From assembly GCA_019828545.1 (NCBI GenBank), contig JACVRA010000077.1, positions 124,001 through 188,000 of the forward strand: 64,000 nt of DNA, written 5' to 3'. Numbering within the stretch: position 1 is the stretch's first letter; every line of letters starts with the position of its first letter. Under the pieces are notes generated by a model. The model made no database searches. It had not been told where the DNA came from and saw only the letters and a program-made list of their open reading frames with translations. The position numbers and the translations under genes were made by a program. Below are positions 51,942 to 54,021 of this stretch, piece after piece. This DNA comes from Paracamarosporium sp. OC-R06-R3. Lineage: Eukaryota; Ascomycota; Dothideomycetes; Pleosporales; Didymosphaeriaceae.

Positions 51942-52476
51942 GGCGGCGGCTTGAGGGAACGAGACGAAAGGGTTTGGCAACGTTTGGGAGAGGATGCGCG
52001 TCAAGGTGAGGGGCAGCTGCGGTATGGCGGGGTAGTTGCGCGGGCCGGTGGCGCGTGCGCGTTTTCCTTGGGAGTGATTGTGTCGGCCATCCTCCAAGCT
52101 CGGGAGCAGCGTGTTGATATGCTCGAGACGGTGATCGTCCAAAGCAGCTACGCCCAAGAACTCGCCTTCGGTTGGAACTAGGATGGAAAATCGAAAAATC
52201 CCAATCTTCTGGCTGGTCCACAGCAGGTTTGGATCGACTGTGGTGTTTGTTTGCATCCAAACATGCCCAGGAACAACACCGACTTGAAACACAATCCACG
52301 CATATTCTACCCGTCCGGTCTTGCCATTTGCAACAGATGGCTATGTCTATCCTCGCGATACATCGTGGGGTTTCAAAACATGTGGCTGGGAGTCTACACT
52401 AAATCGGAAAGCGCGTTTTTTAGACGCGTCCTCCAGCTCTATGAGATCACGACCACCTCTACCTTTGCCTCTTCGG
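51942..52476. other. Divergent promoter, TMA20 / AT-hook gene
   Basis: About 535 bases between divergently transcribed genes. Open frames on both strands enter it but show no family features. Confidence 0.45.
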
Positions 52477-53136
52477 ATGGGTAACGAGCAATCCCACCAA
52501 CAATCGCGCGAAATGTCTCCCACAAAGACTCCCACGAAGCGATCGCTTGAAAGCAGCGACGCGCCTCCCACGAAGCGTCCACGCGGCCGTCCCAGAAAGG
52601 ACCCGAATGCACCTGCAGCACCACCAAAGGATCCTAATGCCCCAACCCGTGGTCGAGGAAGGCCAAAGAAAGACGTTCAGGGAGTTGAGTCATCGGCGAC
52701 ACCGCAAAGTATTGGTGTAGCGAAACGAGGCCGGGGTCGTCCCAAGAGCTCAACATCGGTTATCAAGAAGGTCCCGAAGACCACAACTCGTGGAAGAGGA
52801 CGACCAAGGAAAGATGAAAACTCAACTGCACCTGCAAAAAGCTCTACTACGGCTGGGCGTGGGAGGGGTCGCCCCAAGAAAGACGCAGTCACGACTACGC
52901 CTACGGATAGTTCGGCCCAGTCCAGCCAGGGTAAAAACCAGCCAGAGGTGACTACGAGTGCAGAAAAAGCTACACCAGTTGCGCCTGAGGCCGGTCGAGG
53001 TGATCGTTCGAAGAAGGAAATGGAAGTTTCCGCTCCGACTACGAACGATGGAGATACATCCCCCGCGACACCAGCTCATCTTGTCATCACTTCCGACGTT
53101 GAGGAAGAGGAACAAGACGCTGCGGCATCAGAGTAG
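52477..53136 (+). CDS. AT-hook protein with five hooks
   Basis: A single exon of about 219 residues from MGNEQSHQQ; an in-frame ATG at 52441 is possible. It contains five AT-hook cores: KRPRGRPRKDP, RGRGRPKKD, KRGRGRPKS, RGRGRPRKD and GRGRGRPKK, separated by Ser/Thr/Pro/Ala linkers, and ends with an acidic tail (SDVEEEEQDAAASE). AT-hooks bind the minor groove of AT-rich DNA, so this is probably a nuclear architectural protein of HMGA type. The hooks are arranged like tandem duplicates. Such low-complexity proteins evolve fast, so orthology cannot be judged. Confidence 0.82.
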   Translation: MGNEQSHQQSREMSPTKTPTKRSLESSDAPPTKRPRGRPRKDPNAPAAPPKDPNAPTRGRGRPKKDVQGVESSATPQSIGVAKRGRGRPKSSTSVIKKVPKTTTRGRGRPRKDENSTAPAKSSTTAGRGRGRPKKDAVTTTPTDSSAQSSQGKNQPEVTTSAEKATPVAPEAGRGDRSKKEMEVSAPTTNDGDTSPATPAHLVITSDVEEEEQDAAASE

Positions 53137-53843
53137 CTGAGTGAGGCAGATATCACAGCACAGAAACCCACTAGTTTGAGCTGTGAAGGAGTCTGTTCCG
53201 GCCTTGGTGAGTACTCGAAGAGCAATAAGACTATGTATTATACAGGAGGTGTATGATCAAAAGAAAGCAAAAGGTACACGGATGAAAACCGGAACGCCGA
53301 TAGACTTTGCAGATATGTCGAGTGGTCGGAGAATCTCAACAGTTTGGGACAAGATTTGGAATGGACAGTTATCTCATGGTATTGATAACGTAGACGAGAG
53401 CAATCGAACGGGCTTTGTCTTATGTATATAGTCGTCAGGGAGATGCACGGTGTTGAGGCGTGCAATATAATGCATTCGGGTAATTCGATAGGAACACCTA
53501 CCTGGATTTATTGTGAACTGTTCGATGTTGTGCAACACAATCGTTATAGGAAGCGATATGTGACACTTCCTATTTTCGTCTGAGCAATAATATCAGGAAT
53601 GGGGGAGTAAAGGACTGTGAGCCGAGTGGATCGTCCAAGTGGAGCTCACCCTCGCACATGCCAATCATCTTCGCCTCTGTTGCACGCCCTGTCGGAGCGA
53701 TGACACATATGCACAGAGGTGTTGGCCACTCGCAAATTGGAGTGTCGACTGTAGAGCAGGAAAAACAATAGCCTATATAATTGATTTTATCCCACAAAGA
53801 CTCATCAATCAGGTGATTAGCGACTCACCAAAATCGATACCAC
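53137..53843. other. Intergenic before the tRNA gene
   Basis: 3' side of the AT-hook gene and 5' flank of the tRNA gene. A short open frame at 53183-53431 has no recognisable features. Confidence 0.4.
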
Positions 53844-53996
53844 GGTGGTATGGTCTAGTGGTATGACGTCGCGTTGTGGAAACACATGATAATTCCGCGC
53901 CAGCCTGGGGTAGGTTGGCCCTCTCCTCGAGAGGATCTATCAATCCAATGAGCAAAAGTACTGACTGTCGTGACAGTTCGATTCCCAGTACCGCCA
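53844..53996 (+). tRNA. tRNA-His (anticodon GTG) with two intervening sequences
   Basis: The acceptor stem GGTGGTA (53844-53850) pairs with TACCGCC (53989-53995), followed by A73. TGGTCTAGTGG (53851-53861) is box A and the D arm. The anticodon stem TCGCG, loop TTGTGG with anticodon GTG at 53876-53878, is followed by a canonical tRNA intron after position 37 (53880-53894) whose CACA pairs with TGTG as in other fungal tRNA introns. The T-stem strand CTGGG (53905-53909) is separated from loop TTCGATT and strand CCCAG (53977-53988) by a second insertion, 53910-53976. Removing both gives a tRNA of about 71 bases with a perfect T arm. Base 27-43 is mismatched. Seven Ts follow at 54015-54021 as a Pol III terminator. 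Confidence 0.8.
53910..53976 (+). other. 67-base GT-AG insertion in the T arm of tRNA-His
   Basis: It begins GTAGGT and ends GACAG. TACTGAC at 53959-53965 matches the fungal branch-site consensus, with the branch-type A 12 bases before the AG. Length and signals equal those of the mRNA introns in this window. It contains two hairpins (CCTCTC/GAGAGG; ACTGTC/GACAGT). I see no bulge-helix-bulge at its ends. Confidence 0.7.
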
Positions 53997-54014
53997 GCAA
54001 CGTTATAAGCGTTC

Positions 54015-54021
54015 TTTTTTT
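54015..54021 (+). terminator. Pol III terminator of tRNA-His
   Basis: Seven consecutive Ts, 18 bases after the discriminator base of the tRNA. Confidence 0.75.

Follow-up and report, generated by a model that had tools for sequence, protein, structure and literature searches.

Organization of the tRNA-His locus

The analysed window, a stretch of 64,000 nucleotides (positions 124001-188000 of contig C317), is part of the genome assembly of a filamentous fungus (43.1 Mb in 337 contigs). The proteins encoded in the window are nearest to those of Pleosporales, e.g., Kalmusia, Didymosphaeria, and Paraconiothyrium, which points to the family Didymosphaeriaceae in the class Dothideomycetes; identities are 78% (GMC oxidoreductase), 92% (stomatin-like protein), and 82% (Tim54). 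At positions 53844-53996, the forward strand of the window carries a tRNA-His(GTG) gene that is interrupted twice, by an anticodon intron of 15 nt and by an insert of 67 nt, the latter exactly at the border between T-stem and T-loop. Exon 1 (53844-53879) comprises the 5' strand of the acceptor stem, the D arm, and the 5' half of the anticodon arm with the GTG anticodon. It is followed by the canonical anticodon-loop intron (53880-53894) and, as delimited by the sequence and its Rfam alignment, by a second exon part (53895-53909) with the 3' half of the anticodon arm, the variable loop, and the 5' strand of the T-stem, CTGGG. The insert (53910-53976) separates this part from the last exon (53977-53996), which contains the T-loop, the 3' strands of the T-stem and acceptor stem, and the discriminator A. 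Exon 1 and the last exon are the same in two further copies of the gene, on contigs C37 and C18 (see below). Upstream of the tRNA gene, positions 52288-53136 form an open frame with a match to AT-hook motifs.

The ends of the insert are of the spliceosomal type. It starts with GTAGGT (53910-53915), which resembles a 5' splice site, contains the branch-site-like motif TACTGAC (53959-53965), and closes with CAG (53974-53976), which resembles a 3' splice site; all three motifs are the same in C18. A preliminary description of the locus had already noted these motifs, the canonical intron in the anticodon loop, and the exact separation of T-stem and T-loop by 67 bases. The sequence bears out each of these points, and the C37 copy, which has an empty site in its T arm and in which ARAGORN called the same 15-nt anticodon intron, confirms the latter two. 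The branch motif also stood, but not the distance of 12 bases given for its A: in both interrupted copies, the branch-type A of CTGAC precedes the A of the closing AG by 11 bases.

Such a gene is easily overlooked. The Rfam tRNA model aligned to it over positions 1-71 with two insertions and a score of 26.9 bits, which is below the gathering score of 29 bits, so that a gathering-level scan of the window did not find it; ARAGORN, run with bacterial settings, made no call at this position either. Once the insert is removed, the score is 51.2 bits. In the predicted mature tRNA, the D stem is limited to 3 bp and some pairs are non-standard; the intact gene on C37 has both features as well.

Promoter elements and tRNA gene census

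The elements that presumably drive transcription by RNA polymerase III (Pol III) are all in place. A TATATA element (53774-53779) is located 70 bases upstream of the tRNA, an internal element that we take to be the A box on the basis of its consensus (TGGTCTAGTGG) spans 53851-53861, and a run of seven T (54015-54021) likely serves as terminator. Although the insert interrupts the B box, its closing AG supplies the first two bases of a usable one (53975-53985), which reads AGTTCGATTCC instead of GGTTCGATTCC and depends on this dinucleotide. The form AGTTCRA occurs at the same place in 8 of 32 other nuclear tRNA genes. TATA[AT]A was found at most 100 bases upstream of all three tRNA-His genes (at -70, -55, and -48) and of 23 of these 32 genes. 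A T7 run follows 3/3 tRNA-His genes, and at least four T occur within 60 bases of all 32 others. Both interrupted genes keep the TATA element, A box, usable B box, and T7 terminator, and no run of four T was found in the C317 or C18 insert.

The genes used for comparison stem from an Rfam tRNA census in which 62 matches were above the cut-off. From these, 29 were set aside (14 on C26, 14 on C300, and one on C316), which left the C37 tRNA-His gene and the 32 comparison genes. These are minimum numbers for the nuclear tRNA genes, because only 63 of 1284 first-look candidates were scored and the window gene is absent from the matches. C26 and C300 each carry COX1 and a mitochondrial-type tRNA set, and the assembly therefore appears to include two distinct mitochondrial genomes, whereas nuclear Tim54 is matched only once. 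The sample may have contained a second fungus.

Three copies of the tRNA-His gene

A genome search with the window tRNA as query, from which the insert had been removed while the anticodon intron was retained, found three places: the window gene itself, C37, and C18. The C37 gene (228935-229020, minus strand), which ARAGORN called as tRNA-His(gtg), lacks the insert and, over all of its 86 bases, does not differ from the window gene without it. This identity fixes the boundaries of the insert to one base of slide, with ends that are either GT..AG or GG..CA. In the C18 gene (174471-174614, minus strand), the 71 exon bases are likewise unchanged, the anticodon intron is an unrelated one of 8 nt, and the T arm holds an insert of 65 nt at the identical position. 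Thus, the window gene has its anticodon intron in common with C37 and its T-arm insert in common with C18. According to the preliminary description, intact tRNA-His genes elsewhere, combined with a lack of reads across the insert junction, would mark the window gene as a broken copy; the C37 gene supplies the first half of this combination. An assembly error was considered as well and is unlikely, because the insert is present at two loci.

In comparisons of 12 kb of the window with 8 and 9 kb around the other two genes, nucleotide similarity did not extend beyond the tRNA and its immediate flanks (C37, 106 + 21 aligned bases; C18, 190), and no wider duplication was seen. Judged by their sequences, the three genes are dispersed copies. 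In the 120 bases upstream, the alignments of the window gene with C37 (score 54) and with C18 (score 49) surpass all 500 letter shuffles, the C37-C18 alignment does not beat its shuffles (0.16), and in the 60 bases downstream the C317-C18 pair again exceeds 500 of 500 shuffles, with values of 0.026 for C37-C18 and 0.1 for C317-C37; all these values are soft because the flanks are A/T-rich. Possible histories include a precise loss of the insert in C37, its gain followed by gene conversion, and recombination between copies.

Features of the T-arm insert

The inserts of C317 and C18 agree in 52 of 67 alignment columns and differ in 15. All 14 columns of the motifs GTAGGT, CTGAC, and CAG are unchanged (hypergeometric 0.018). 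Between the same two genes, none of the 71 exon bases has changed, compared with the 15 of 67 insert columns (Fisher 8e-6), and this holds for the 20-nt last exon by itself (0/20, p 0.018). As far as the insert is concerned, the argument from conservation is based on n=2 sequences.

In composition and spacing, the insert resembles a U2-type intron: its GT..AG ends include a 5' splice site similar to others in this organism, and its branch motif is found at a spacing usual in fungi. Of the 127,866 67-mers that the two strands of the window contain, a single one combines a GT..GT start with a CTRAC(4-22)YAG end, and this match, on the plus strand, is the insert. Three introns of neighbouring genes (56, 61, and 53 nt), placed with the help of homologous proteins, start with GTAGGG, GTGCGT, and GTTCGT and end with CAG, TAG, and CAG; inspection by eye showed CTAAT, CTCAC, and CTAAC inside them. 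Their ends, motifs, and lengths uphold the earlier statement that the insert looks like the spliceosomal introns nearby.

The first 16 letters of the insert are the same in C317 and C18, which is more than a 5' splice site needs. They pair with the exon in a predicted 9-bp hairpin (-13.5 kcal/mol) around the 5' splice site, an energy that 0.6% of shuffled tails and 2% of random ones also attain. Such a hairpin would bury the 5' splice site and is not required by any simple splicing model. The start of the insert (53910-53919, GTAGGTTGGC) is nearly the reverse complement of the preceding exon (GCCAGCCTGG), a likeness that may hint at the origin of the insert.

A canonical eukaryotic tRNA intron is found one base 3' of the anticodon. 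The 15-nt intron fits this position, whereas the T-arm insert differs in its site, its greater length, and its GT..AG ends. The strict form of the bulge-helix-bulge motif was not found at the insert junctions in eight registers (two slides x two cut offsets x two genes): a 4-bp central helix was absent, and the best register had 2/4 pairs. A genome search for near copies of the window insert matched only the insert itself, with a sensitivity that is limited because the 78%-identical C18 insert was also missed. The several near-identical copies in other genes that would characterize an introner-like element were not found in this same search. Its result and the clean empty site on C37, which lacks duplicated flanks, weaken a mobile insertion, which the preliminary description had named as an alternative.

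Processing of the interrupted genes

By the current view, introns of nuclear tRNAs are removed by the tRNA endonuclease and those of mRNAs by the spliceosome. The best single reading of the T-arm insert crosses this division: it probably is a spliceosomal intron in a tRNA-His gene transcribed by Pol III. The window would then contain a working gene with two introns of different kinds. Pol III would transcribe the entire unit by means of the TATA element, the A box, the B box completed by the intron's AG, and the T7 terminator. The spliceosome would remove the 67-nt insert (GU..CUGAC..CAG) and thereby restore the T arm, and the tRNA endonuclease and a ligase would excise the 15-nt anticodon intron; the order of the two steps may be either. 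This arrangement suggests that the mRNA-splicing machinery can process a tRNA. A wider scenario is tentative and, taken as a whole, rather doubtful. In it, the maturation of a cytosolic tRNA depends on the spliceosome, two unrelated machines each splice pre-tRNA-His once, and the C37 gene, which retains the anticodon intron and is devoid of the T-arm intron, was copied from a precursor in mid-processing from which the spliceosomal intron alone had been removed.

The intact C37 gene speaks against a spliceosomal intron in working genes, because the interrupted genes may be dispensable in its presence, and the GG..CA ends are formally possible given the one-base slide. The hairpin around the 5' splice site, the intron-less U6 and U3 genes of this genome, the outcome of the one-site pattern search, which gave no further tRNA of this kind (see below for both), and the small number of inserts behind the conservation argument also weigh against this reading. 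The interrupted genes might instead be pseudogenes: an insertion would have disabled one copy, the dead gene would have been copied, its exons would have been kept alike by conversion with C37 or by recent copying, and all tRNA-His would come from C37. We regard this explanation as unlikely on the whole, but gene conversion from the intact copy is a serious rival. It could account for the identical exons, and the letter-identical anticodon introns of C317 and C37 fit it well. What it explains less readily is that two genes are interrupted at the same site by inserts that have diverged, next to exons that show no decay relative to the intact copy (0/71 bases changed in either gene), a contrast that argues against simple pseudogenes. 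Conversion would also have to restore a last exon of 20 nt that has diverged sequence on either side, the insert and the region downstream, and both genes retain their promoter parts and terminator, with the splice motifs among the unchanged columns. The preliminary description had offered two readings, a Pol III transcript processed by the spliceosome or an interrupted pseudogene. This interpretation is supported in part, and the second interrupted gene on C18 was added to the picture. With its insert at the same site, unchanged exons, and diverged insert sequence, this gene is not what a recent one-off broken copy would predict.

It is quite improbable that the GT..AG ends are coincidental and that the insert, like the ectopic introns of archaea, nucleomorphs, and Cyanidioschyzon, is excised by the tRNA splicing endonuclease or some other enzyme of RNA processing. 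Hairpins do fold in both inserts, and 53/54 is listed as an archaeal intron position in a paper that also describes spliced T-arm introns in a nucleomorph (PMC4090602). Yet the central helix expected of an archaeal-type endonuclease substrate reaches no more than the two pairs mentioned above, and a complete set of spliceosomal motifs at spliceosomal spacing would be left unexplained. More improbable still is a function of the unspliced transcript as a tRNA-based structured non-coding RNA that is no source of tRNA. The predicted C18 precursor is more stable than versions with a shuffled insert (z -2.7; 5/300 reach its energy), the C317 precursor shows a weaker signal of this kind (z -1.8; 16/300), and hairpins recur in both predicted folds; but the 3' hairpin of C18 has lost one pair without a compensating change, and the 71 exon bases still are those of the complete C37 tRNA-His, including T-loop and acceptor.

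If the T-arm insert indeed is a spliceosomal intron, a pre-tRNA can be a substrate of the spliceosome, and an internal Pol III promoter can accommodate an intron whose terminal AG rebuilds the B box. Routine tRNA annotation can then overlook such genes, as exemplified by the window gene, which scored below the Rfam cut-off and was not called by ARAGORN. The question is directly testable, because one genome holds both an insert-bearing gene and a letter-identical gene without the insert.

Comparison with known introns

Spliceosomal introns in small structured RNAs are known, but a tRNA as their host was not found in print: among the matches listed in searches of the open-access literature, no title or abstract beginning reported a spliceosomal intron in a tRNA gene. 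Fungal U6 and U3 genes bear spliceosomal introns, and, according to a survey of fungal U3, no other small structured RNA is known in which introns are frequent (PMC5832005). U6, in turn, is a Pol III transcript (PMC10484740). The tRNA-His genes resemble these cases in having a short GT-AG intron inside a small structured RNA gene and in the coexistence of intron-bearing and intron-less paralogues in one genome, which the same survey describes as possible (PMC5832005). They differ in that the host is a tRNA, that the intron splits an internal Pol III promoter, and that a tRNA-type intron is also present. Moreover, U6 and U3 of the present genome are uninterrupted: no intron was found in the two full-length U6 matches (100 nt, 91.4 bits), a shorter third match, or the one U3 match above the cut-off, the latter as seen by eye. 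A shortened U6-like match (C302:51797-51868; 72 nt, 62 bits) is about 220 bases from a full-length U6 match (C302:52088-52187) and in opposite orientation.

The ectopic tRNA introns of archaea, nucleomorphs, and Cyanidioschyzon merolae likewise lie outside the anticodon loop, including the T arm, where those of one nucleomorph are confirmed, and there may be two per gene (PMC4090602). In archaea and C. merolae, such introns are tied to the bulge-helix-bulge motif and the splicing endonuclease; here, spliceosomal motifs take the place of this helix. The anticodon intron at 53880-53894 agrees with the canonical introns of nuclear tRNAs, from which only the T-arm insert departs. Introner-like elements are a route of spliceosomal intron gain in Dothideomycetes (PMC4457414), the class to which, judging by its protein matches, the present fungus belongs, but the window insert had no near copy in the genome besides itself.

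tRNA genes of the type described here could be commoner in fungi than annotation indicates. Annotation may undercount them, because the analysis of noncanonical introns by tRNAscan-SE 2.0 is described as applying to candidates of the archaeal search model (PMC8450103).

Searches for similar arrangements

A pattern search of the genome covered one insertion site and the CTRAC motif. With CTGAC or CTAAC followed after 2-30 bases by AGTTCRANYCC, 10 and 12 matches were obtained, respectively, and the reversed controls yielded 9 and 7. Among the resulting 22 rows, two of which overlap, inspection by eye placed only the two interrupted tRNA-His genes within a tRNA, and no other tRNA with this T-arm arrangement was found. 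Exact patterns used to look for relatives had 0 matches in viral contigs and 0 in contigs of prokaryote genomes, as expected for a fungus. Two of the remaining loci, C241:298004-298045 (L083) and C258:125806-125841 (L086), combine a TATATAT-like element upstream with a B-box-like motif (AGTTCGANTCC) and, by eye, no recognisable tRNA; they are possibly other Pol III genes. Two more, on C197 (L071) and C330 (L075), have a similar stretch (CACCGAATCAAACAAAAAC...GAGCCGGGCTTCGAAGTGGCTTTTAG) beside a B-box-like motif, which, as seen by eye, makes this stretch a candidate for a repeated element or RNA.
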